Shown in pieces: positions 40,759-59,837 of a DNA stretch of 64,000 nucleotides. Origin of the DNA: Ruficoccus amylovorans (GTDB taxonomy: Bacteria; Verrucomicrobiota; Verrucomicrobiia; Opitutales; Cerasicoccaceae); contig NZ_JACHVB010000021.1 in assembly GCF_014230085.1 (NCBI RefSeq), positions 1 to 64,000 of the forward strand, read 5' to 3'. The notes beneath the pieces were generated by a model. That model was not told the DNA's origin. It saw only the letters and a program-made list of their open reading frames with translations, and made no database searches. How positions within the stretch are numbered: position 1 is the first letter of the stretch; each line of letters begins with the position of its first letter. A program made the translations under genes and the position numbers.

Positions 40759-41421
40759 ATGAAGTTCCCCCTTATGAAGATGCGGAAGCCCCGTTCCGGC
40801 TTCACCCTGATCGAGTTGCTGGTGGTGATGGGCGTTATCCTGATCCTGGCCGGTATCGTCGTCGGCGTGCAGCGCGGTGTTTACTACCAGCAGTCCCAGG
40901 CCCGCGCCAAAGCCGACCTGCAGGCCATTGCCAACGCGCTGGAGTCCTTCAAGCTCAAGTACGGCGACTATCCCTGGCTCGGCGCCGACGCCACCGATTC
41001 CAGCGTGGGTAATGCCGAAGAATTGTTTCAGGTACTGACGGGACAACTGGTTCTGCGCAAGAATGGCACTCAGTACGATATGACCGACCCGTCCACAGCT
41101 CAACGGGTGCCCTTGATCGACGAAAACCTTATTGATGCCCACGAAACCAGCAATAATCCTGACTATTTCATCGACCCGTGGGGCAACCCGTACAAGTACT
41201 ACTACAAGACCGTGGCTCAGGGGCGCAGCGGTACGGGCTGGAACCACTCTGGCTTCATTCTGATGTCCACCGGGCCGGACCGCCGGACCGGACCGACCTC
41301 TGGCACCGGTTACAACCTGGGCACTGGGATCTTTCCCCAGAACGGAGACGACTACTTTGGTACACCTGGTACGACGAACTATGCTTTCGATAACATTATT
41401 TTCGGCCTGGAAGCTCCGTAA
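40759..41421 (+). CDS. GspG-like prepilin protein (first of operon)
   Basis: 220 residues. Prepilin leader ending in G before FTLIELLVVMGVILILAGIVVGV, with Glu at +5, then a helical spine (QQSQARAKADLQAIANALESFKLKYGDYPW) and a C-terminal domain with the GspG-like FIDPWGNPYKYYYKT. A prepilin peptidase would cleave and N-methylate it. It is the major-pseudopilin candidate. ATGs at 40759 or 40774 are both possible starts. It opens a five-gene run on the plus strand. Confidence 0.9.
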   Translation: MKFPLMKMRKPRSGFTLIELLVVMGVILILAGIVVGVQRGVYYQQSQARAKADLQAIANALESFKLKYGDYPWLGADATDSSVGNAEELFQVLTGQLVLRKNGTQYDMTDPSTAQRVPLIDENLIDAHETSNNPDYFIDPWGNPYKYYYKTVAQGRSGTGWNHSGFILMSTGPDRRTGPTSGTGYNLGTGIFPQNGDDYFGTPGTTNYAFDNIIFGLEAP

Positions 41422-41441
41422 CACCTAATTTTAACTGCCCT

Positions 41442-42017
41442 ATGAAAAAGACCCTTCGCCCCCGCCGTCGCGGCTTTACCCTGATCGAACTGCTGACCGT
41501 TATCGCGGTCATCGGCATCCTCGCGAGTATCCTGATCCCCACCGTGGGGTCGGCGAGAAAGTCCGCCAACAAGGCCAAGACCAAGGCCCAGTTCACCGGC
41601 TACGCCAATGCCATTCAGAGCTTTAAAAGCACTTATGGCTACTGGCCGGAATTCTTCACCAGTGATGCGACCTCCTACAATGTCGGTAGCAACACAGCTG
41701 AGTTCGTTAACACCCTCTCCGGGCGTAATATCACGAACGGCAACCCGATCCAGGAAGGTGGAAATCGCCGGGCGGTTCCGTTTTACTCCTTTGCCGAAGA
41801 TGAATTTGACCCGGATGAGACCACCGATACATTGGTGGACGCCTTTCGTAATCCCAATATCATCATTAAGGTGGATTACAATAACGACGGGCAGATCACC
41901 GGCCTCCCTAACCCCAGCACCGGTAGTGGGAGCAGTGAAACCGTTCGCGCCAAGGTCGCCATCTACAGCGACACGAGCAACTTCGCCGAAGGCGAAGGCG
42001 TCTACTCCTGGGACTAA
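41442..42017 (+). CDS. GspG/PulG-like prepilin protein (second of operon)
   Basis: 191 residues. Leader MKKTLRPRRRG then FTLIELLTVIAVIGILASIL. The spine KSANKAKTKAQFTGYANAIQSFKSTYGYWPE is followed by a variable domain. The late VDAFRNPNIIIKVDYNNDGQI fits the calcium-site area of GspG-like proteins. It follows the first gene by 20 bases. Confidence 0.9.
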   Translation: MKKTLRPRRRGFTLIELLTVIAVIGILASILIPTVGSARKSANKAKTKAQFTGYANAIQSFKSTYGYWPEFFTSDATSYNVGSNTAEFVNTLSGRNITNGNPIQEGGNRRAVPFYSFAEDEFDPDETTDTLVDAFRNPNIIIKVDYNNDGQITGLPNPSTGSGSSETVRAKVAIYSDTSNFAEGEGVYSWD

Positions 42018-42023
42018 TCTGAT

Positions 42024-42722
42024 ATGAGACATTCCCCATCCAGTGCCGCTCGCGGCTTTACTCTGGTCGAGCTTTTGGCGGTCATCGGGATCATCGCCGT
42101 CATGGCGACGGTCATCGGCGTCTCATTGGGGGGCGGTAACGCCAGCGCCTCCCTTGGCAGCAGCCAGCGCATCGCGGCCGGTGTTTTTCAGTCGGCCCGT
42201 TCCATCGCTGTGCTCAAGCAGACGCAGACCAAGGTTGTTGTTTACGAGAGTGGCGACACAGGTATCGATCCGGGAAAGTATCTGCGCTTTCTCCAGGTTA
42301 TTTACAAGACGACGGATTCTTCCGGTGCCGACGTTTGGGTGGCCGCGAACGCCGGGACCTACCTTCCGCAGGGGGTCTATTACGTGCCGCGTACGGGTGG
42401 ATTTGATAGCAGCGTCCTGACTATTGCCAGTGAAACAGCTACCGGAGGGGCGATGACCTCGGATAATGTGACTTTCCGACCGGTCGAGGGTTCGACGGTG
42501 AGTGTCCGGGTAACGGGCTACGTTTACGAGTTCGACAGTAACGGCCTGTCAAATAACAACGGTGATACGGTCGTCTTCGCCGCCGGGACGGTGTCCGGTT
42601 ATGATGGTACCACAGGTGCTCCACGTCTGACCTTTGACAACCAGTATGCCGTTACCGGTTTCTACATCCGCAAAACCGGCAGTGTCATCCTTGCCGATTT
42701 TGACGACCTGAATAACATTTAA
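42024..42722 (+). CDS. GspH-like prepilin protein
   Basis: 232 residues. Leader MRHSPSSAARG then FTLVELLAVIGIIAVMATVIGV. After the spine (SLGSSQRIAAGVFQSARSIAVLKQTQTKVVVYES) comes a beta-rich GspH/FimT-like domain. It resembles minor pseudopilins and the 'cassette' prepilins of Verrucomicrobia. It overlaps no neighbour; the gap to the previous gene is 6 bases. Confidence 0.87.
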   Translation: MRHSPSSAARGFTLVELLAVIGIIAVMATVIGVSLGGGNASASLGSSQRIAAGVFQSARSIAVLKQTQTKVVVYESGDTGIDPGKYLRFLQVIYKTTDSSGADVWVAANAGTYLPQGVYYVPRTGGFDSSVLTIASETATGGAMTSDNVTFRPVEGSTVSVRVTGYVYEFDSNGLSNNNGDTVVFAAGTVSGYDGTTGAPRLTFDNQYAVTGFYIRKTGSVILADFDDLNNI

Positions 42723-42733
42723 CGTACACGGAC

Positions 42734-43276
42734 ATGGCTCGCTCTACACTATCCCAGCATTCGTTCCGGGGCGGAATCCGTTCCAGAGGCTTTTCCCTCA
42801 TCGAAGTCGTGCTCGCCATCGGCGTCCTTTCGCTCGCGGTCGTGGCCATGCTTGGACTGTTCGCGCCCACAATGGGCTCGGTCAAGCAGGTGGTGGACGG
42901 AAACAAGGCCACCGCGCTGGTCGGCCTGATTAATTCCTATGTCAACGACCAGATGACCTACGACGATGTTGCTGGCACCCGCACGTCTGATATCTATCGC
43001 TATGCCTGGGAGCAAGAGGATACAGCGAGTGGTACGGTGGATCTCGTCATGTCAGCGACCGAGCCTACCCCCGCCCAGCGTGCCGATATGCTCGGCTCGG
43101 CCTTTGTTGTTAAACTCTCCAAGCTCGATCTGGACGGGTATGATGATCCCGACGATGAAGCTTACGTGCCCTTTTTGGTGACCATCTATCAACTGGACCT
43201 GGATGGCGGATTTAATGTTGCTAATCTTGGCGAGGCCAACCGTGTCCTTTCCTACCCTTCGGCTAAACTGCGATAA
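42734..43276 (+). CDS. GspI/PilV-like prepilin protein
   Basis: 180 residues. Leader ending RSRG then FSLIEVVLAIGVLSLAVVAMLGL, the GspI/PilV-type start. A helical spine and a small C-terminal domain follow. Position fourth in the run is consistent with a minor pseudopilin at a tip complex. Confidence 0.88.
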   Translation: MARSTLSQHSFRGGIRSRGFSLIEVVLAIGVLSLAVVAMLGLFAPTMGSVKQVVDGNKATALVGLINSYVNDQMTYDDVAGTRTSDIYRYAWEQEDTASGTVDLVMSATEPTPAQRADMLGSAFVVKLSKLDLDGYDDPDDEAYVPFLVTIYQLDLDGGFNVANLGEANRVLSYPSAKLR

Positions 43277-43296
43277 CCGCTTTGCTTTTTTCCCCC

Positions 43297-44271
43297 ATGA
43301 CCACGCTCTCCCTGGATAACGATTCCCAGCCCACCGCCTCCGAGCAGCCCGTTGAACAGCGCACGATGCGCTCACGCCAGGGCTTCACGCTGGTGGAAAT
43401 CATGGCCGCCACCGGGATCATGGTCGCGGTGATCCTGCTCGTGCTGGGGTTGACCACGAACGTGCTCAATACTTGGAATTTTTCATCTGACCAGCTTGCC
43501 CAGAACTACGAGGCCCGCATCGCCCTGGATTTTATCAATCAGGACATGGAAGCCGCCTATTTCAACAGCAAGGGCATGGTATGGATGCAGGCTGTCTATG
43601 GGACCGTCGGTAATTCCGATGATCAGGCGCGGCTCTTTTTCTTTTCTCCGGTTACCGACCGGGATAGTGACGTCGCAGGCGATTACTGCGCGGTCGCCTA
43701 CGCGACAGAATATCAGAACCCGTTCAACCCCACTTCCACTGACCGCCGCCGCTACGGACTCTACCGCCGGGTGGTTGATGCCGAGACGACCTTTAATGAT
43801 GTCATGACCGTGCCGAATTTCGCCGCCGGTGGTACGCTCTACGACAACTACTGGGAGGGGAACATGGGGACGGGCATCACTGGCGTTTTTGCCAAGGATA
43901 ACTACCTCAGCGCCAATGTGGCGGACTTTAAGGTCATCTTCTGGTATGACGATGGTACGCGTAATGCCGATGGCACCAAGGATATCAAAGCCATCACTTC
44001 AAATGAGGGTGCGACAGGCAATCCACTGGCTTTTGTTGTCGCTGACCGCATTTACATTTCCGACAGTGGGGATGGTACCTCCGGCTATAACGATGCTGTC
44101 GATGGCCACTTGGTCTATGCCGACATCACCATGACTGTCCTTGGTGACGAGGGCGCGAACATGGTGGGGAACGACTCTTGGGATGACATGGGAATTACGT
44201 GGGAGCAGTTCCTGAAGATGTACGGGCAGACCTTTACCCGGCGTGTCTATATCATGAGCAATCCGCTTTGA
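43297..44271 (+). CDS. GspJ/PilW-like prepilin protein
   Basis: About 324 residues from [11 protein letters not shown]; a start at 43366 (MRSRQG) would give a normal short leader. Cleavage site RQG before [23 protein letters not shown]. The long C-terminal domain ([22 protein letters not shown] onward) is beta-rich, as in GspJ/PilW. It ends the operon. No GspK-like gene, secretin or assembly ATPase is present in the window. Confidence 0.87.
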
Positions 44272-49002: not shown

Positions 49003-49233
49003 ATGGATATCCAATCCTTTATCACGAACTTCGCCGAGGCCATCGACGGCCTGGAGCCGGATGGCCTCACCGCGCAGACCGCGTTCCGCGAGCTGGAGCA
49101 GTGGGATTCGCTGGCGTTCCTCAGTGTGCTGGCCATGATCGACGGCGAGTACGGAGTCGAACTCCCCGGCGACGAGCTTCTGGCCTGCGCAAACCTGGGC
49201 GAGCTTTGCCAGGCGGTGGCGGCCAAACAATAA
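49003..49233 (+). CDS. acyl carrier protein 1 of the acyl-assembly cluster
   Basis: 76 residues from MDIQSFITNF. The phosphopantetheine site is in QWDSLAFL (Ser36). Helices II and III (SLAFLSVLAMIDGEYGVELPGDEL) are ACP-like. It is distinct from the housekeeping AcpP (which carries DSLD). It begins a run of plus-strand genes spaced by 33 bases or less up to the VOC gene. Confidence 0.9.
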   Translation: MDIQSFITNFAEAIDGLEPDGLTAQTAFRELEQWDSLAFLSVLAMIDGEYGVELPGDELLACANLGELCQAVAAKQ

Positions 49234-49239
49234 ATTCCC

Positions 49240-49977
49240 GTGTCTGACCTGGCCCAGAAACGCATCCTTGTCTGCGGCGCTTCCTCCGGGATCGGCCGGG
49301 CCTGTGCCCTTGCCGCCGCCGGGGCCGGAGCCGCGCTCGTGCTCAACGGGCGGGACCGTACCCGGTTGGAGGAGACGCTGGCCGCGCTGCCGGGAGAAGG
49401 GCATACGCTTTTGCCTGCCGACTTGACCGACGCCGCCGCCCGCCGCGAGTTGGCCGCGTCCGTTCCCGCGCTGGATGGGGTGGTTTTTTCCGCCGGTTTT
49501 CACCGGATCAAGCCGGCCAAGTTCCTCGACGACGCGGGCTGGGAGGAGACTTTTTCTATCAACCACCGGGCACCCTGCCTGTTGACTTCGGCCCTGCTGA
49601 AGGCGAAAAAAATCAACCCCTCGGCCTCGCTGGTCTATCTGGGGTCAATCGCGGCCGAGGCCGCTACTGTCGGCAACGCCCTTTACGCCGGTTCCAAGGG
49701 GGCGCTGATCTCCACCGTGCGCGTGCTCGCGCTGGAACTGGCGCGTCAGGCCATCCGCGCGAACGTCGTCTCCCCCGGCCAGGTGCGGACCGCCATGACC
49801 GAGGCCAACGCCGCGCAACTCTCGGCGCAGGCACTGGAGGAGAACGCGACCCTGTACCCGCTCGGCCTGGGGACGCCGGAGCAGGTGGCCGAGGCGGTTC
49901 TCTTTTTGCTCAGCCAACGTGCGGCCTGGATCACGGGCCAGAATCTCGTCGTCGATGGCGGCTACACCCTCAAATGA
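49240..49977 (+). CDS. short-chain dehydrogenase/reductase of the acyl cluster
   Basis: 245 residues (GTG start). NAD(P) motif CGASSGIGRA, NAG-like VFSAGFHR, catalytic Ser (YLGSIAAEA) and Y-x-x-x-K (YAGSKGAL), and C-terminal GQNLVVDGGYTLK. It is FabG-like, so it probably reduces a 3-ketoacyl group on one of the neighbouring carrier proteins. The stop overlaps the start of the next gene by four bases. Confidence 0.9.
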   Translation: MSDLAQKRILVCGASSGIGRACALAAAGAGAALVLNGRDRTRLEETLAALPGEGHTLLPADLTDAAARRELAASVPALDGVVFSAGFHRIKPAKFLDDAGWEETFSINHRAPCLLTSALLKAKKINPSASLVYLGSIAAEAATVGNALYAGSKGALISTVRVLALELARQAIRANVVSPGQVRTAMTEANAAQLSAQALEENATLYPLGLGTPEQVAEAVLFLLSQRAAWITGQNLVVDGGYTLK

Positions 49978-50636
49978 CAGGCGCGATGCAGGAAATACTG
50001 GTACTCGGAGCGGGCGGCCTGGGCCGCGAAGTGTGGTCCTACCTGGAGCACAAGCTCGCCGTCGATGCCGAATTCGCCACCACTTACCGGCTCAAGGGCT
50101 TTCTGGACGATGACGCGCAGGCGCTCGACGGCTATGACTATCCGGGCGGCGTGGTCGGCGGCATCTCCAGTTATAAACCTGCCAGCAGCGAATGGCTGGT
50201 CTGCGCCCTCGGCGCTCCCTCGGTCAAGGCCCGCCTCTGCCCTGAACTGAAGAAGCGGGGGGCGCGCTTCCTGACCTTTGTGCATCCGACTTCGACCCTG
50301 GGGCGCAATGCGGTGCTGGGCGAAGGCGTTGTGCTGGCCCCCTATACCCAGGTCTCCGCCGATGCGCGGATGGGGGATTTTTCCTTTCTCAATTGCCACT
50401 CGACCTGCGGGCACGACGCGAAAGTCGGCCCCTGCTGCACGGTCAGCTCGTACTGCGATCTGACTGGCTTCGTCGAGCTGGGAGAGCAGGTCTTCATGGG
50501 CTCTCACGCCACGGTGATTCCCGGTCGTCGCGTCGGTGACGGTTGTACGATCGGTGCCGGTTCGGCGGTCGTCACCCATCTTCCCGCCGGAGCACGCGTG
50601 CTCGGGGTCCCGGCCAAACCTTTTATGCGAAAGTAA
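49974..50636 (+). CDS. NeuD-type left-handed beta-helix acyltransferase
   Basis: 220 residues. An N-terminal Rossmann-like half (EILVLGAGGLGREVWSYLEH) is followed by hexapeptide repeats (VLGEGVVLAPYTQVSADARMGDF to VGDGCTIGAGSAVVTHLPAGARVLGVP). This architecture matches NeuD/PglD sugar acyltransferases. In this context it is the likely enzyme that moves the finished acyl group onto an acceptor, perhaps an amino sugar. The acceptor is unknown. Confidence 0.88.
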   Translation: MTGAMQEILVLGAGGLGREVWSYLEHKLAVDAEFATTYRLKGFLDDDAQALDGYDYPGGVVGGISSYKPASSEWLVCALGAPSVKARLCPELKKRGARFLTFVHPTSTLGRNAVLGEGVVLAPYTQVSADARMGDFSFLNCHSTCGHDAKVGPCCTVSSYCDLTGFVELGEQVFMGSHATVIPGRRVGDGCTIGAGSAVVTHLPAGARVLGVPAKPFMRK

Positions 50637-50640
50637 CACC

Positions 50641-51714
50641 ATGACCGCTTCCCGCGCCACCATCACCGCCATGCACTATTGTATCCCCCCCGACATTCTC
50701 GGGCAGGAGGAGTTGGCGGAGCGCTTCGGGGAAAAAGCGGTCGCCAATATCGCCAAGCTCTCCGGCGTGACCGAACGCCGTGTGGCCGATCCGGGGGTGA
50801 CGTCGGTCGATCTGGCCGAGTGTGCCGCCCGGCGCTTGATGGAAGCGCAGGGTGTTGCGCCGGAGTCGATTGACTTTGTGTTGTTTGCCACCCAGACGGG
50901 CGACTACCAGCTCCCGGCCTCGGCCTGTGTCTTGCACGGGCGGCTTGGATTGGCAAAAAACTGCGGCGCGCTCGACATCGGGCTGGGCTGCTCGGCCTTT
51001 CCCTACGCCCTGAGCGTGGCCAACGGCCTCATCGCCACCGGCGTTGCCCGCCGCGTGCTCCTCATCAACGCCGACACTCTGACCAAGGTAATCCATCCGC
51101 GGGACCGCGGGCTGGTCCCGCTCCACGGTGACGGAGCGGTAGCAACCCTGCTGGAACCGGCTTCCGGCGAGGCGGGGCTGCTCGGTTTCGAACTGGGGAC
51201 GGATGGCTCCGGCGGCGAACACCTGATGATCCCGGCCTCCGGGGCGCGCCACCCGCGCAGTGCCGAGACCGCGCGGGAGATCGAGGACGAGACCGGCTCG
51301 GTCCACACACAGGAGCACCTTCAGATGAACGGCCCGGCGGTTTTCCAGTTCTCGATCCGTGAGACGCCCGCCGCGCTCAAGCGCGCTTTTGAGAAATGGA
51401 ACATCGCCCCCGGCGATCTCGATCTGCTGGTGTTGCATCAGGCCAATCGGATGATGCTCGACCTGATTTACAAAAAAGCGGGCCTGGGGCCGGAGCAGCA
51501 GTTTTTCTTTCTGGAGAAAATCGGCAACATGAGCGGCGCATCTTCGCCGATGGCGTTGGCCGAAGCCTGGCGCAGCGGGCGGCTCAAGCCCGGAACGCTC
51601 GTGGCGGTGGCGGCTTTTGGCGTCGGGCTGTCGTGGGGCGTTGCCCTGATGCGCCTGCCCGAAACACTGGCCGACTGCTCGATGGCGTCCGTCGAGTACG
51701 CACCGCAGACTTGA
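50641..51714 (+). CDS. 3-oxoacyl-ACP synthase III-like condensing enzyme
   Basis: 357 residues. The full Cys-His-Asn triad is present: Cys117 in DIGLGCSAFPYAL, His266 in VLHQANRMML, Asn296 in IGNMSGASSPMAL. It would condense a CoA- or ACP-bound starter with an ACP-bound extender. It is diverged from housekeeping FabH (the MSGASSP segment). It begins 4 bases after the transferase gene. Confidence 0.92.
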   Translation: MTASRATITAMHYCIPPDILGQEELAERFGEKAVANIAKLSGVTERRVADPGVTSVDLAECAARRLMEAQGVAPESIDFVLFATQTGDYQLPASACVLHGRLGLAKNCGALDIGLGCSAFPYALSVANGLIATGVARRVLLINADTLTKVIHPRDRGLVPLHGDGAVATLLEPASGEAGLLGFELGTDGSGGEHLMIPASGARHPRSAETAREIEDETGSVHTQEHLQMNGPAVFQFSIRETPAALKRAFEKWNIAPGDLDLLVLHQANRMMLDLIYKKAGLGPEQQFFFLEKIGNMSGASSPMALAEAWRSGRLKPGTLVAVAAFGVGLSWGVALMRLPETLADCSMASVEYAPQT

Positions 51715-51747
51715 GCGAGCATTTTTCTCTAAATAAAAATACGCCCG

Positions 51748-52209
51748 ATGGAAACGCCCGCGCCCACCTTTAATCTCCACCACACTGGCTACCTGGTGGG
51801 CGATCTCCCGGCGGCGGGCGCGCACTTCTGCGGGCTGTTGGGCTACCGGGTGGAGTCGGCGGTGATCGAGGACTCTGCGCAAACCGCCCGGGTGCAGTTC
51901 CTGCGGCAACCGGGCGCGGATAGCTGGCTGGAACTGGTCAGCCCGGCCTCGGAAAACAGCAAGCTCAGCTCCGCCCTGAAAAAAGGCGGCGGCCTGCACC
52001 ACCTCTGCTACGAGGTGGACGAGCTGGGGGCGGCCTGCGCTCATCTGCGTGCCGGAGGGATGTTCCCGTTGGGCGAGCCAGTCCCGGCAGTGGCCTTTCC
52101 GGGGCGGCGGATCGCGTGGTTCATGGATGCGCGGCGACTGCTCGTCGAACTGGTCGAGGCGGGCAAGGGGGTGCTTTCGCTGGCGTCATTGCGGGCTGGC
52201 CAAGTCTGA
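51748..52209 (+). CDS. VOC-family (glyoxalase-fold) protein of the acyl cluster
   Basis: 153 residues. Metal-ligand pattern like methylmalonyl-CoA epimerase: His in LHHTGYLVGD, Glu in WLELVSP, His in GLHHLCYEV, and Glu in LLVELVEAG. It could epimerise or isomerise an acyl-thioester intermediate. It lies 33 bases after the KAS III gene. Confidence 0.85.
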   Translation: METPAPTFNLHHTGYLVGDLPAAGAHFCGLLGYRVESAVIEDSAQTARVQFLRQPGADSWLELVSPASENSKLSSALKKGGGLHHLCYEVDELGAACAHLRAGGMFPLGEPVPAVAFPGRRIAWFMDARRLLVELVEAGKGVLSLASLRAGQV

Positions 52210-52314
52210 CCCGCCAGTTTTAGGCTGCGGCCTTGTCTTTCGCCTATCTATTATAAAGACCGTCTTCCAATACAACGGGCGGAACTTTTATCTCCCCGGA
52301 AACTCTCCAGCACC

Positions 52315-52542
52315 ATGCCAGACTCTCGCCTGCCGCGCCTGCAACGCATCTTTCGCGATGTGCTCGACGAGCCATCGCTGCAATTAGCGGAGGATTTCTC
52401 CACCGCCGCCCATCCCGAGTGGGATTCGGTCGTCATGGTGCAGATCGTCCTCGCGGTGGAGCAGGAGTTCGGCTGCGAACTGGAGATGGCCCAGGTGGCC
52501 GAGATCAAGTCGGTGGCGGACATCCTGCGCTGTTTGCCGTAG
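52315..52542 (+). CDS. acyl carrier protein 2 of the acyl-assembly cluster
   Basis: 75 residues. Phosphopantetheine site WDSVVMV (Ser38). Helix II VQIVLAVEQEFGCELEMAQV and helix III IKSVADILRCL are typical. It is adjacent to the FkbH gene, as in systems where a FkbH protein loads glyceryl or a related group onto a dedicated ACP. Confidence 0.9.
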   Translation: MPDSRLPRLQRIFRDVLDEPSLQLAEDFSTAAHPEWDSVVMVQIVLAVEQEFGCELEMAQVAEIKSVADILRCLP

Positions 52543-52570
52543 ATGGTGTTCAAATCAAATGTCAGTCACT

Positions 52571-52695
52571 CTTGAAACGCTGAATGGTTAAATGGCTAAA
52601 ATGGTTAATTGTTATTTCCTACGTTCAGCATCCAGCAATTAACAATCAGCCATTTAGCCGTGTAACCCTTGGGCTGCAATATTACTTGAAACGCT
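52571..52695. mobile_element. MITE-like 103-bp palindromic insertion with 11-bp direct repeats
   Basis: CTTGAAACGCT occurs at 52571-52581 and again at 52685-52695. Between them is a 103-base segment with inverted arms: GGTTAAATGGCTAAAATGGT then TAATTGTTA on the left, and CAATTAACAATCAGCCATTT then AGCC on the right. Direct repeats plus an internal inverted repeat are the signature of a miniature inverted-repeat element. The right direct repeat contains TTGAAA and is followed by TATACTATATAAG, so the insertion may have reset the promoter of the FkbH gene 38 bases further on. Confidence 0.65.
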
Positions 52696-52733
52696 ATACT
52701 ATATAAGAAGGCATCTTCCCCTCCCGTTCCGCC

Positions 52734-54980
52734 ATGTTGAACCTCACCGCCGAAGCCCTGTCCCGTCTTGATACCCCGGCCCTGACCGCGCTCCTGCGCG
52801 CCGCTCCGGAGCCGGGGACCGTGCGCGCACTGTGGGCGGTGGTGAAGGCGTTGCCGACGGTGGATCTGCCGTTGGCGGCGGCACTGCTCGATGTGTTGGC
52901 GGCGGAGGGAATGGATTTGGAGACGCTGGAATCGTCCCTTGAAAAAGACTCCGCCTCCGGGACCTCCGAAACCGCCCCTGCCCCGATGGTGGCGTGGTTG
53001 CAGGCTTCGCTGCTGGAGCAGGCGGGGGAAACTGATGCGGCCTTGTCGGCGTGGAAAGTTATCGCCGAGTCCGGGGCCTACGGCCATCCCGGTGACGCGC
53101 TATTGGCCGTAGCACGGCTGCAATTGCGGACGGGGCATCCGCCGCTGGCACTGGCGACGCTGCGCGAGGCGCTGCGGCGGGGCGAGGAAAGCTACGGCTT
53201 CTGGAGTAGGGCCGACCGGCTGGCCCGCAAGCTCTTGCCCAAGTTCCCCATGCCGGAGCGCCCGTTGAAGATCGCGCTCCTGGGCTCGTCCACGACGACG
53301 TTTTACGCCGCCACCGTGCGCGTGGCAGCGGTGCGGGACGGGTTTTTCCCCGAAATCTACGAAGCCCCCTTCGGAACCTGGCGGCAGGAGATTTTGAGCG
53401 AAAGCTCGGGCTTGTACGCCTTTGCGCCGGATGTGGTCGTCCTGGCCACGCACTGGCGCGACGCCGGACTGGCCACCTTTGCCGCTGAAGATGAGGCCGG
53501 GGCGGTGGAACTGCTTTCCGCTGAAGAAGTGCCACCGGTTGTCGCCGAGTTGAAACACGGCTGGGGGCTCCTGCGGGAGCGGCTGGGGTGCCCGGTCATT
53601 CAGCACAGCTTTGACCTGCCCGCGGGTGACTCGGGCGGCGCGCTCGGTGCGAACGCGCCCGGCGGGCGCATCCGCTGCCTGCGCGCGCTCAACGAACGCT
53701 TGCGCCGCGAGGCTCCACCCGGCGTTGCCGTGCTCGATCTGGAGGCGCTCGCCGCCGGGGCGGCTGGCTGGGTCGATCCGCGCCAGTGGTATATGCACAA
53801 GCAGCACCCGGCGCTGGACGCGCTTCCGGCGCTGGCGAACGCCTGTCTGGGGCTGATTCGCGCCGTGCTCGGACTGAGCCGGAAAGTCCTCGTGCTCGAC
53901 CTCGACAACACGCTCTGGGGCGGCGTCATCGGCGAGGACGGGCTGGCGGGCATCCGCGTGGGGCCGCCGCAGGCCGAGGGCGAGGCCTATGCCGAGTTCC
54001 AGCGCTATGCCCGTGAGTTGAAGGAGCGCGGCATTTTGCTGGCTGTCTGCTCGAAAAACAACGAGGCCGACGCCCGCCTGCCCTTTGAAAAACACGACGG
54101 TATGGTGCTCGGGCTGGAGGATTTCGCGGTTTTCGTGGCCAACTGGGAAGACAAGCCCGTCAACCTGCGCCGGATCGCCGAGACCCTCAATGTCGGGCTG
54201 GACAGCTTTGTCTTCGTCGATGACAACCCAGTGGAGCGGGCCCGTGTGCGGCAGGAGTTGCCACAGGTCGCCGTGCCCGAAATCGGGGCCGACCCGGCGG
54301 AGTTTATAAACATTCTCGCCGGCGGGCGGTGGTTCGAGGCGCTCACGCTCTCGGAGGAAGACCGCGTGCGCCACGCCGCCTATCAGGCGAACGCCGAGCG
54401 TCGCCAACTGGAAGCCGCCGCTCCCGATCTGAATACTTTTCTACGCCAGTTGCGGATGCGCGTTTCGCACGGGCCAATCACGGAGGTCAACCTGGAGCGG
54501 GTGGCCCAGCTTGTCGGCAAGACAAACCAGTTTAACCTGACCACGCGCCGTCACCCGGCGGAGGCGCTGCGGCGCTTCGCGGCTGACCCGGCGGGTTGGA
54601 CGCGGGTTTTTCGTTTAAAAGATCGCTACGGCGACAACGGGCTGGTCGGGGTTGTCATCGCCACCGCTCCCCGCGAAGGGGAGTGGGAGGTGGACACTTT
54701 CCTGATGAGCTGCCGGGTGATCGGGCGCGGCCTGGCCGATTACATGGTGACAACGCTGTTGCGGACCGCCGCCGAGCGCGGTATCCGGCGCGTGACCGGC
54801 TTATATATCCCGACGGAGAAAAACGCTTTGGTGGCGGATTTTTATTTCCGCTCCGGCTTTGCCGCCCGACTCGATCCCGCCGAGCAGACCCGGGCCGAAG
54901 GACCCCGGCATTTTGTCTTCGAGGTGGGGCGGCAGGATCTCCCCGCCGTGCCCGAGGGGTTGTTTACCGTATCGGAGTAG
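52734..54980 (+). CDS. FkbH-like HAD-IIIC protein with extra N-terminal helical domain
   Basis: 748 residues, longer than usual (about 350-640). Residues 1-175 form a helical, TPR-like extension (DAALSAWKVIAESGAYGHPGDALLAVARLQLRTG). Residues 178-345 are the SGNH-like domain often found in this group (IALLGSSTTTFYAATVRV). Then comes the HAD core: VLVLDLDNTLWGG (Asp389/Asp391), AVCSKNNEADA and FVFVDDNPVERARV. A GNAT-like C-terminal domain ends it (RLKDRYGDNGLVGVVIA, VTGLYIPTEKNALVADFYFRSGF). FkbH relatives load glyceryl groups from 1,3-bisphosphoglycerate onto an ACP. Confidence 0.92.
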   Translation: MLNLTAEALSRLDTPALTALLRAAPEPGTVRALWAVVKALPTVDLPLAAALLDVLAAEGMDLETLESSLEKDSASGTSETAPAPMVAWLQASLLEQAGETDAALSAWKVIAESGAYGHPGDALLAVARLQLRTGHPPLALATLREALRRGEESYGFWSRADRLARKLLPKFPMPERPLKIALLGSSTTTFYAATVRVAAVRDGFFPEIYEAPFGTWRQEILSESSGLYAFAPDVVVLATHWRDAGLATFAAEDEAGAVELLSAEEVPPVVAELKHGWGLLRERLGCPVIQHSFDLPAGDSGGALGANAPGGRIRCLRALNERLRREAPPGVAVLDLEALAAGAAGWVDPRQWYMHKQHPALDALPALANACLGLIRAVLGLSRKVLVLDLDNTLWGGVIGEDGLAGIRVGPPQAEGEAYAEFQRYARELKERGILLAVCSKNNEADARLPFEKHDGMVLGLEDFAVFVANWEDKPVNLRRIAETLNVGLDSFVFVDDNPVERARVRQELPQVAVPEIGADPAEFINILAGGRWFEALTLSEEDRVRHAAYQANAERRQLEAAAPDLNTFLRQLRMRVSHGPITEVNLERVAQLVGKTNQFNLTTRRHPAEALRRFAADPAGWTRVFRLKDRYGDNGLVGVVIATAPREGEWEVDTFLMSCRVIGRGLADYMVTTLLRTAAERGIRRVTGLYIPTEKNALVADFYFRSGFAARLDPAEQTRAEGPRHFVFEVGRQDLPAVPEGLFTVSE

Positions 54981-55146: not shown

Positions 55147-56421
55147 ATGGTCAAGGAGACCCTGAAATTTCTCACACCCGAAAGTGTCCGCCAGATCGCG
55201 GAAGAGTTTGGCACGCCCGTTTACGTGTATGACGAAGCCGCGTTGACACGCCATGCGGAGGCCGCGCTGGCCTTCCCGAACGCCTTCGGGTTGACGGTCC
55301 GCTTCGCCATGAAGGCCGCCCCCAACGCCGCCATCCTGCGCGTGTTTCACCGGCTCGGGCTGCACATCGACGCTTCCAGCGGATTCGAGGTCAAACGCGC
55401 TCTGCGGGCGGGCATCCCGGCCGAGCACATTTCGCTCAGCACACAGGAGTTTCCCGAAGACTTTGCCCAGCTCTACAAGCACGGCATCCGCTTCAACGCC
55501 TGCTCGCTGGCCCAGCTTGAGCGCTTCGGCGAGCTGTTTCCCGGCTGCCGCTGCGGCCTGCGGGTAAATCCCGGCCTCGGCTCCGGCGGCACCGGCAAGA
55601 CCAACGTGGGCGGCCCGCATTCCAGCTTTGGCATCTGGCACGAGTGGCTGGGCGAGGCCGAAGCCATCGTGGCCAAGTACGGGCTGAGCATCATCCGCAT
55701 CCACACGCACATCGGCTCGGGCAGCGACCCGGCGGTGTGGGAGCGCGTCGCGCTGATGAGCCTGGAAACGGTGAAGCGCTTCCCCGACGTGGTGACGCTC
55801 AACCTCGGCGGAGGCTACAAGGTGGCCCGCATGGCGAGCGAAAAGGCGACCGACCTGCAAGCCATCGGGCAGCCGGTGAAGGCGGCCTTCGAGGCTCTGG
55901 CGGCGGAAACGGGCCGCAAGCTCAAGCTTGAGATCGAACCGGGGACTTTCCTCGTGGCCAACGCCGGGGCGCTTGTCTCAATGGTCCGTGATGTGGTCCG
56001 CACGGGCGGACCGGACGGCATGCATTTTCTCAAGCTCGACTCCGGCATGACGGAGATACTGCGCCCCTCGCTCTACGCGGCCCAGCATCCGCTGGTCATC
56101 GTCCCGGCGCAGGAGCGCGACAGCTCCGCCGAGCGCGAGTACCTCGTGGTCGGGCACTGCTGCGAGTCGGGGGACATTCTCACGACTGGGATGGACGACC
56201 CCGAGGCGCTTTTGCCCCGCTGTCTGCCGGAGACATTCCCCGGCGACCTGTGTGTGGTCGAGGGAGCGGGGGCGTACTGCGCGGCCATGTCGGCGAAAAA
56301 TTACAACTCCTTTCCCGAGGCACCGGAAGTGCTTGTCGGCCTGGACGGGCGTGCGCGCCTCATCCGTCGTCGTCAGCACCCCGACCAGATCGTGCAAAAC
56401 GAGGTCGATCCGGGCGAGTGA
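55147..56421 (+). CDS. lysA: PLP-dependent decarboxylase, LysA-like
   Basis: 424 residues from [17 protein letters not shown] lysine in RFAMKAAPN (Lys56), the glycine loop [15 protein letters not shown] with the catalytic Cys, and [23 protein letters not shown] near the end. These fit diaminopimelate decarboxylase, which makes lysine. Ornithine- or carboxynorspermidine-type decarboxylases share the fold. It is 166 bases after the FkbH gene, so a link with the acyl cluster is possible but not shown. Confidence 0.87.
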
Positions 56422-58355: not shown

Positions 58356-59837
58356 GTGTCTAACCTCCGGCATCATCCTCTGGGGCAACCCGTTCCTGAC
58401 AGCGTGCACGCGGTCTGCGTGAGCTTGCCCACGATGCGTGATGTGATGGGGTACGAGGAAAAATGGCCGGAGACGCTGGCCGCAGTGAAGTTTGCCTACC
58501 CGCGCTTTGTCTTTCACGACTACGTGCTGCAGGCGGCGGAGCAGGGGGCGCGCAGACACGGACTGGCTGGACGTGCCGTCTATGCGGTGGCCTCGGAGCA
58601 GGCCGCGCGCGAAATGGCGCAGTGGATGAAGCTGCTCGATTACGCCATCGTGCCGGAGGGGGATTTCGTCCTTATGCACTTCGCTGACACCCCCGAGGCG
58701 CGGACCGGGGCCAAGGCCTTTCTCCAGCACACCGGTACGAGTATTTCCTCCCGCCAGGCAGAGGCTTACCTGCTGGCCGAGGGACTTTTGGATAAGGGCC
58801 AGCCCGAGCAGCGGACGGAGACCGGAGCGGAGGAAAAAGTCCTCTCCGTGCTACGCGACTATGTGGCCACACCCGATCTGCACCTGTGCAGCAGCGGGAT
58901 GAACGCCTTTTACGCCGCGCTCAAGGCCACGCGCCGGCTTCAGGCTCCGCGTGGGCGGCGCATCTATGTGCAGTTGGGATGGCTCTACCTGGACACGATG
59001 AAGATTTTGGAGAACTTCCTCGGGCCGGATGAGGAAGTTATCGTGCAGACGGATGTTTTTGATTGGGAGGCGATTGAGAAGATTTTCAGCCAGTACGGGG
59101 ACCGGTTGGCCGGAGTCGTGACCGAGCTGCCGACCAACCCGCTCGTCCACACGCTGGACATTGGCCGTCTCTCCGGGCTGTGTCTGCGGCACAGGGTGGT
59201 ACGGATTTTTGACCCGAGTCTGGCCGGGGTCGTCAATGTGGATGTGCTGCCTGGGACGGACCTGCTCATCACGAGCCTGACCAAGTATGCCGCACATGCG
59301 GGTGATGTCATGAGCGGGGCGGTGGCGGTCAACCCGGCTTCACCCTTTTACGCGAAATTGCGTGAGCTGCTCCCCCGCGAGGTGCAGGCGCCGCACGGTT
59401 CGGATGTGGCGCGGCTGGCCGCGCAGATCGGGGACATGCCTGCCGTGGCCTCGGCCGTCAACGCCAATGCCCTTGCTCTGGCCGATCACCTTTCGCGTTC
59501 GGCGAAGGTGGCACGGCTGTTTGCGCCGCTGGAGACGCGTTCGGCGGCGAACTACCGGCTCATCGCCCGCTCTGACGATGCCGTAGGGGCGATTCTGACT
59601 TTCGATCTGGCGGGCGATTTGGCGGAGTTTTACGACCGAGCTCGCGTGGTCAAGGGGCCGAGCTTCGGCACCGGCTACACCATGATGTGCCCGTTCCTCT
59701 ACCTGGCACATTACGACCTGGTGAGCACGCCGGAGGGGCGTGCGCACTTGCGGGCGCGGGGGCTGAACCCCGAGCTTATTCGCCTTTCGGTGGGCGCTGA
59801 GCCGGTGGAAGAGATCATCGACGCGCTCGGCTTGTAG
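58356..59837 (+). CDS. Cys/Met-metabolism PLP enzyme, cystathionine-gamma-synthase-like
   Basis: 493 residues (about 100 longer than bacterial MetB). The PLP lysine is Lys310 in LLITSLTKYAAHAGDVMSGA; HLCSSGMNAFYAALK and TELPTNPLVHTLD are further PLP-site regions. The N-terminal extension (CVSLPTMRDVMGYEEKWPE to FAYPRFVFHDYV) resembles that of fungal cystathionine gamma-synthases. It probably acts in methionine or cysteine metabolism. GTG start. A different 34-codon frame starts at 58318 and overlaps it. Confidence 0.86.
   Translation: MSNLRHHPLGQPVPDSVHAVCVSLPTMRDVMGYEEKWPETLAAVKFAYPRFVFHDYVLQAAEQGARRHGLAGRAVYAVASEQAAREMAQWMKLLDYAIVPEGDFVLMHFADTPEARTGAKAFLQHTGTSISSRQAEAYLLAEGLLDKGQPEQRTETGAEEKVLSVLRDYVATPDLHLCSSGMNAFYAALKATRRLQAPRGRRIYVQLGWLYLDTMKILENFLGPDEEVIVQTDVFDWEAIEKIFSQYGDRLAGVVTELPTNPLVHTLDIGRLSGLCLRHRVVRIFDPSLAGVVNVDVLPGTDLLITSLTKYAAHAGDVMSGAVAVNPASPFYAKLRELLPREVQAPHGSDVARLAAQIGDMPAVASAVNANALALADHLSRSAKVARLFAPLETRSAANYRLIARSDDAVGAILTFDLAGDLAEFYDRARVVKGPSFGTGYTMMCPFLYLAHYDLVSTPEGRAHLRARGLNPELIRLSVGAEPVEEIIDALGL

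Follow-up and report, generated by a model that had tools for sequence, protein, structure and literature searches.

The window analysed here is a stretch of 64,000 nucleotides from Ruficoccus amylovorans (contig NZ_JACHVB010000021.1, positions 1 to 64,000), which carries a putative acyl-donor cassette of seven genes between positions 49003 and 54980. A preliminary description of this DNA had placed the seven genes on one strand and assigned them to two acyl carrier proteins (ACP1 and ACP2), a 3-ketoacyl-ACP synthase III (KAS III), a short-chain dehydrogenase/reductase (SDR), a vicinal oxygen chelate (VOC) protein, a NeuD-like transferase and FkbH, and the open reading frames and profile matches confirmed both the strand and the families (Table 1). 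The serine motifs of the two ACPs were both intact in the translations. The start of the KAS III gene was corrected to the ATG at 50641, since position 50638 begins an ACC codon and the 392-residue open reading frame listed there is a GTG extension. The intergenic gaps, counted from this ATG, were 6 (ACP1–SDR), −4 (SDR–NeuD), 4 (NeuD–KAS III), 33 (KAS III–VOC), 105 (VOC–ACP2) and 191 bases (ACP2–FkbH); the first five genes thus nearly overlap, as had been described, and ACP2 and FkbH stand slightly apart. The G+C content of the cassette (0.649) is near that of the window (0.624), so that composition shows no sign of recent import. The gap between ACP2 and FkbH holds an A+T-rich nested inverted repeat at 52583–52670, a 19-base piece of which did not recur elsewhere in the window.

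Table 1. The seven genes of the putative acyl-donor cassette, with profile matches and proposed roles
Gene	Position	Strand	Profile match and motifs	Proposed role
ACP1	49003..49233	+	PF00550, 39.1 bits; DSL serine motif	Carrier of growing/final acyl chain
SDR (VioR/FabG-like)	49240..49977	+	PF13561, E 5.9e-49; GASSGIG and YAGSK (YxxxK) motifs	3-Ketoacyl-ACP reductase, accessory
NeuD/VioB-type hexapeptide N-acyltransferase	49974..50636	+	TIGR03570, 166.2 bits (cut-off 160.8)	Final transfer to UDP-4-amino sugar
KAS III, VioS type	50641..51714	+	PF08541/PF08545; 357 aa	Condensing enzyme
VOC metalloenzyme	51748..52209	+	PF13669	Epimerase, accessory
ACP2	52315..52542	+	PF00550, 33.4 bits; DSV serine motif	FkbH partner
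FkbH	52734..54980	+	TIGR01686, 288.9 bits (cut-off 146.65); extra helical N-terminal region	Glyceryl transferase/phosphatase

The conservation of the cassette was followed in 132 genomes of the order, among which FkbH matches occurred in 19 and KAS III matches (E <= 1e-60) in 37. FkbH and a KAS III of the window type occurred together in nine of them: the window genome (G000), G020, G129, G117, G008, G022, G071, G079 and G023. Genome G020, of the same genus, has all seven genes in the same order at the same site, and G129, also of this genus, has five genes at the same site without SDR and VOC, for which its gaps of ~0.1 kb leave no room. Because nine of the 132 genomes share the pair and G020 keeps all seven genes in synteny, the grouping is more than chance. 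The 26 FkbH match rows in the order included 16 with neighbourhoods of ~13–20 kb and, for L017–L019 and L021–L026, short flanks only. At the 13 loci with both FkbH and KAS III (the window, L027–L034, L036–L038 and L049), NeuD and two ACPs were always present, SDR was present in nine and VOC in seven, and VOC was never present without SDR; left out of this count were L035 (FkbH and ACP2 only), L039 and L040–L042 (no KAS III found), L051 and those FkbH loci for which the flanks were short. The preliminary description had proposed that its idea of a novel acyl modification would fall if the genes were not conserved together in relatives, and NeuD, the two ACPs, KAS III and FkbH did stay together at all 13 loci. 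SDR and VOC are optional, accessory parts of the cassette. At L030 and L031 (in G023 and G008), two sets containing KAS III and SDR adjoin each other, and only one of the two includes FkbH; the FkbH-less set of L031 includes an acyl ligase-like gene, and each of the two sets there has its own NeuD.

FkbH proteins load glyceryl on ACPs in tetronate and related polyketide pathways, and an FkbH loading module has an adjoining dedicated ACP, the position that ACP2 occupies here. The FkbH of the cassette, a HAD-IIIC plus GNAT protein well above the TIGR01686 cut-off, is encoded by a single copy in the window genome; its HAD motif DLDNT is intact, and residues D389, D391, T393, K441, D496 and C660 were invariant across 12 aligned homologues. 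The AF2 model (mean pLDDT 82.2, pTM 0.54), which given its modest pTM was used for domain assignment only, gave Foldseek matches to 3slr and to GNAT folds and predicted an extra helical N-terminus of ~170 residues. By analogy with FkbH proteins elsewhere, we infer that this enzyme would load glyceryl on ACP2 from 1,3-bisphosphoglycerate. Among FkbH loci in GTDB (the best 80 of at least 442 confirmed stretches, some of which end at contig ends), an ACP lay within 700 bp of FkbH in 61 and anywhere in the locus in 69, VOC was found anywhere in 13 and within 1.5 kb of FkbH in six, and KAS III was present in two. A plasmid search for FkbH (E <= 1e-50) returned 65 records among 72,556, and two loci (H11 and H4) were inspected among the matches listed.

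The Cys-His-Asn triad is intact in the window KAS III, and across the aligned KAS IIIs Cys and His were kept in 37/37 and Asn in 36/37, which fits decarboxylative condensation. The window enzyme shares 45% identity with the KAS III that B. glumae encodes next to vioA, and its VioS-type label rests on this similarity, not on P. syringae VioS. In two maximum-likelihood trees, the ten KAS IIIs found beside a long FkbH formed one clade (support 100/99 and 100/98) that spans families f1, f9, f11, f22 and f23 and an uncultured Opitutales. The remaining f11 enzymes in the tree, from genomes without an FkbH match, belong to the type found without FkbH. Because the clade crosses host families and the other f11 enzymes fall outside it, this KAS III goes with FkbH and not with the host, a pairing that fits adaptation of the enzyme to its primer but also simple transfer of the set as a unit. 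The same type of KAS III (E <= 1e-85) was present in at least 4 of 387 genomes of the phylum, all in the same order, in a search that scored at most five candidates per genome and may have missed some. Three of the 72,556 plasmid records had a KAS III match at E <= 1e-60, one of which (H1) was inspected. A Coxiellaceae locus (L051) has both FkbH and KAS III, but its KAS III is not a member of the clade and has no Asn in the triad, which is why the locus is not among the 13.

The combination of FkbH, ACP and KAS III is typical of tetronate clusters, and a small-molecule pathway, tetronate or other polyketide, therefore has to be weighed. The Pseudalkalibacillus plasmid NZ_CP156675.1 (L254) carries a probable tetronate-like cluster with KAS III, HAD-IIIC (FkbH), ACP, an E2-type acyltransferase and oxidoreductases. 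Like the FkbH glyceryl loaders, the cassette combines an FkbH domain with a dedicated ACP and a nearby KAS III, but it differs from them in having NeuD, in the helical extension of FkbH and in lacking a polyketide synthase and offloading set; E2-type acyltransferase, hydrolase and polyketide synthase were absent from the seven genes and from the scanned flanking genes. In addition, the window KAS III had no significant similarity (E 4.6) to the tetronate-like KAS III of that plasmid, the only such enzyme compared, and NeuD was present at 13/13 loci. A small-molecule product is thus extremely improbable. Methoxymalonyl-ACP modules (FkbG/H/I/J/K) comprise an acyl-CoA dehydrogenase, a second dehydrogenase and an O-methyltransferase, and no acyl-CoA dehydrogenase or methyltransferase is among the seven genes.

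The nearest PDB sequences to the cassette NeuD were perosamine N-acetyltransferase and VioB, with UDP-N-acetylbacillosamine N-acetyltransferase also among the matches, and its His147 was invariant across 14 aligned homologues. The VOC protein matched 2qh0/3hdp in the PDB; methylmalonyl-CoA epimerase was rejected as its exact function, the TIGR03081 score of 45.7 bits being far under the cut-off of 114.95 and reflecting a weak likeness. The viosamine island of P. syringae contains vioA, vioS, vioB, vioR and acp, with orfA–orfE of P. aeruginosa PAK named alongside; in the accessible part of that paper, loss of vioR or vioB removes the modified viosamine from the flagellin glycan (PMC3927599). 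For this island, 3-hydroxybutyryl made from acetyl-CoA is proposed as the product. In B. glumae, a homologous KAS III-ACP-SDR-acetyltransferase set lies beside vioA and flagellin. As far as the island is described there, it shares with the cassette KAS III, SDR, ACP and a NeuD/VioB-type N-acyltransferase for a 4-amino-4,6-dideoxy sugar, whereas the cassette adds FkbH, a second ACP and VOC and is linked to exosortase-type extracellular polysaccharide (EPS) rather than to flagellin. The preliminary description had been unable to name this combination of genes. The KAS III/SDR/ACP/NeuD half can now be named as a viosamine-type set of the P. syringae kind (PMC3927599, as far as accessible), but its union with FkbH was not found in the open-access literature searched, in which FkbH, KAS III and NeuD in a polysaccharide context gave no match among the papers listed, as judged by titles and abstract openings.

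A separate EPS locus on contig C32 of the window genome contains genes that the cassette lacks. It encodes a sugar transferase (66% identical to the PF02397 protein of G117), EpsI (TIGR02914, just above cut-off), a WecA-like protein (PF00953), a PglF/CapD-type 4,6-dehydratase (PF02719), a DegT/LegC-like aminotransferase and an XrtA-type ATPase-like protein below cut-off; no NeuD was found in this locus. The window genome has three exosortase genes above the Pfam cut-off, none of them on C32, and the label exosortase-type thus rests on EpsI and the ATPase. In contrast to the viosamine module, the seven genes have neither an aminotransferase nor a transferase alongside, the DegT/LegC-like gene being on C32. 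The preliminary description had correctly noted that the cassette contains no glycosyltransferase, but this is less puzzling than it then seemed because sugar-nucleotide genes and priming sugar-phosphate transferases are present in the separate EPS locus. The interval from the sugar transferase to EpsI, which in relatives is the site of acyl genes, is occupied on C32 by a pentameric ligand-gated ion channel-like gene (L155:3779-4867; PF02931; NCBIfam LGIC_1 432.8 bits, cut-off 500); in G020 and G129, the 20 kb surrounding the EPS locus showed no such gene.

A census of ten family genomes found exactly one full-length NeuD in nine (158–189 bits; next match 74 bits), counting as full-length those of G069, G094 and G104, which are just under the TIGR03570 cut-off of 160.8. 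In the window genome, this is the NeuD of the cassette. The single NeuD lies in the cassette beside lysA in G000, G020 and G129, and in the EPS locus in the other six. In G117, the EPS locus contains the complete FkbH cassette between the sugar transferase and EpsI, whereas in the five cassette-less genomes G039, G054, G069, G094 and G104 the same interval holds another kit, consisting of NeuD, ACP, acyl ligase, iron-containing alcohol dehydrogenase (Fe-ADH) and a LuxE-LuxC fusion. This other kit was identified by Pfam for G039, with Fe-ADH and LuxE-LuxC also by Pfam for G094, and by tblastn for all five; VOC was also present in the interval in four of the five. The interval measured 718–1981 bp without acyl genes in G000, G020 and G129, and 5.8–7.1 kb with acyl genes in the six other genomes. 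Because the acyl kits replace each other one for one, it is supported at the level of gene content and position that the cassette and the EPS locus form one functional unit, and the link of the cassette to EPS is well supported. Outside the family, FkbH-less NeuD-ACP-KAS III sets lie beside EpsI and/or an aminotransferase in several families, 10 of the 37 KAS III-bearing genomes of the order had a DegT gene no more than 10 kb from KAS III, and a DegT/LegC-like gene adjoins the cassette in G117 and G022.

NeuD might instead act on another amino sugar, of a pilin, S-layer or lipid glycan, with the one-for-one pattern due to chance or loss; the position of the cassette away from the EPS locus in the window genome and the prepilin-like genes (N_methyl) at 40759–44271 are in keeping with this. 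However, G117 has its cassette within the EPS locus, at the very place that the other kit occupies in five genomes, and together with the whole-genome NeuD census this makes another target very unlikely.

Considering these results, we propose the following route, in which a detached, swappable acyl-donor cassette probably serves exosortase-type EPS by extension of a glyceryl group; each chemical step, and with them the exact acyl group, is inferred from protein families and motifs. FkbH would take 1,3-bisphosphoglycerate and put glyceryl on ACP2. The VioS-type KAS III would then condense the glyceryl-ACP2 primer with malonyl-ACP1 to 3-oxo-4,5-dihydroxypentanoyl-ACP1. VOC may epimerise C4 of this intermediate, because an alpha-hydroxyketone suits a glyoxalase-fold metalloenzyme, and SDR would reduce C3 of the ACP1-bound acyl. 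In the last step, NeuD would acylate the 4-amino group of UDP-4-amino-4,6-dideoxy-HexNAc, the sugar nucleotide that the dehydratase and the DegT/LegC-like aminotransferase encoded on C32 would be expected to make. The fuller proposal, that a 3,4,5-trihydroxypentanoyl (or 3-oxo) N-acyl group is placed on an exosortase-linked EPS sugar from a glyceryl-ACP starter, and that unrelated kits swap in one surface-diversifying acyl slot, is possible but tentative. The acyl modification of a surface sugar suggested in the preliminary description thus gained support from the genes present, from their conservation and from the swap with the EPS acyl slot, and its addition that the group is perhaps glyceryl-derived keeps that cautious wording.

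A simpler group on the same target, in which glyceryl passes from ACP2 to the sugar directly or via ACP1 with KAS III as acyl shuttle, without extension and with SDR and VOC modifying the C3 unit, is unlikely but deserves attention. KAS III-type acyltransferases are known, and SDR and VOC are both missing from 4/13 FkbH and KAS III loci. A glyceric-acid decoration of a surface sugar also exists on C. jejuni flagellin, where the accessible part of the source describes di-O-methylglyceric acid on pseudaminic acid (PMC3068675). This resembles the proposed product as a glyceric acid-derived decoration of a surface amino sugar, although there, as far as described, the sugar is a nonulosonic acid on flagellin and the group is methylated. 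On the other hand, the two ACPs at 13/13 loci fit a donor/acceptor pair, and the window KAS III keeps its C-H-N triad, whereas the Asn is usually missing from KAS III enzymes of the shuttle type. The window enzyme is moreover related to the one beside vioA, and in the accessible text VioS was put forward as a 3-oxoacyl-ACP synthase (PMC3927599).

Two separate products, with KAS III, SDR and ACP1 making 3-hydroxybutyryl from acetyl-CoA and FkbH and ACP2 making glyceryl for another site, appear decidedly unlikely. The two halves do occur apart: KAS III, ACP and NeuD, accompanied by SDR or not, were found without FkbH at many fetched loci, FkbH and ACP were found without KAS III in most of the best 80 GTDB loci, and L030 and L031 each have two KAS III sets. 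However, the four family members with the cassette have one full-length NeuD apiece, the cassette contains no second sugar acyltransferase, and the KAS III type tracks the presence of FkbH rather than the host family. The presence of FkbH argues for a primer other than acetyl-CoA.

Several observations weigh against the glyceryl-extension route and its link to EPS. The acyl-ACP primer for KAS III is an assumption, and the KAS III tree also fits plain co-inheritance or transfer of the cassette as a unit; three KAS IIIs beside a short FkbH (f20) fall outside the long-FkbH clade, so that FkbH and KAS III were either paired repeatedly or reshuffled. Four of the 13 loci, that of G129 included, have neither SDR nor VOC, so that at these loci the reduction would either fall to a housekeeping enzyme or be absent. 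The C32 aminotransferase scores below the TIGR04181 and TIGR03588 (LegC-family and PseC) cut-offs, so that the sugar named above is a tentative assignment, and 27 of the 37 KAS III genomes had no listed DegT within 10 kb. G117 alone in the family has the cassette inside the EPS locus, the two being on different contigs in the window genome. G083 has two NeuDs ~0.7 Mb from its EPS locus, in which neither a sugar transferase nor a NeuD was found in the 20 kb examined. Furthermore, G000 is a 64-contig draft of 97.78% completeness, and a second NeuD could be missing from it.

Other known decorations share parts of the proposed route. In V. cholerae O1 (VC0248–VC0252), the accessible parts of the sources state that RfbL activates 2,4-dihydroxybutanoate and that the perosamine amino groups carry tetronate (PMC12208996, PMC3441752). 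On this partial account, and as in the route proposed for the cassette, a 4-amino sugar receives a dihydroxyacyl group that was first activated on CoA or on a carrier protein. The V. cholerae genes resemble the other kit of the five cassette-less genomes, whereas the window cassette has no ligase, Fe-ADH or LuxE/LuxC, and its acyl group would come via FkbH and KAS III. The V. cholerae tetronate genes other than RfbL and RfbK are taken here in the roles they are said to have. Cj1302–1304 of C. jejuni, which we take to encode FkbH, KAS III and ACP, could not be confirmed as such. The Shewanella sfm operon was rejected as a parallel, since the accessible part of the source reports a 3-oxoacyl-ACP reductase and names no FkbH or carrier protein (PMC3765264).

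The genes upstream of the cassette, on the − strand, are a DUF985 cupin gene (Pfam) and feoA and feoB, the last two named from their translations, and a lysA-like gene at 55147–56421 lies directly downstream. The lysA-like decarboxylase was rejected as a cluster member, as a strong ortholog (E <= 3.6e-159) occurs in all ten family genomes whether the cassette is present or absent; in G039, which belongs to the same genus but has no cassette, lysA adjoins the cupin gene and feoB. It was also rejected as the exosortase-A-associated decarboxylase TIGR03099 (114 bits against a cut-off of 478), and judged by its conservation it is a housekeeping gene. A role in anti-phage defence was set aside because none of the seven cassette proteins had a PADLOC match. 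Elsewhere in the window, positions 58356–59837 encode a 493-residue pyridoxal phosphate-dependent enzyme resembling BesB (383 bits, cut-off 800), which is 79–81% conserved in G020 and G129. The prepilin-like genes mentioned above number five and follow one another; all have prepilin-type N-methylation motifs, four of which exceed the Pfam cut-off, and together they may form a pseudopilin operon.

If the proposed route is correct, it would join polyketide-style glyceryl loading to KAS III-based N-acylation of amino sugars, two modules known apart, and it offers a concrete target for the orphan ACP and KAS III genes that neighbour EpsI in genomes of this order. The swap of two chemically different kits at one EPS locus suggests that sugar decorations are exchangeable as units, and, if the swap holds, the acyl group would be predictable from the genome sequence and testable by mass spectrometry.

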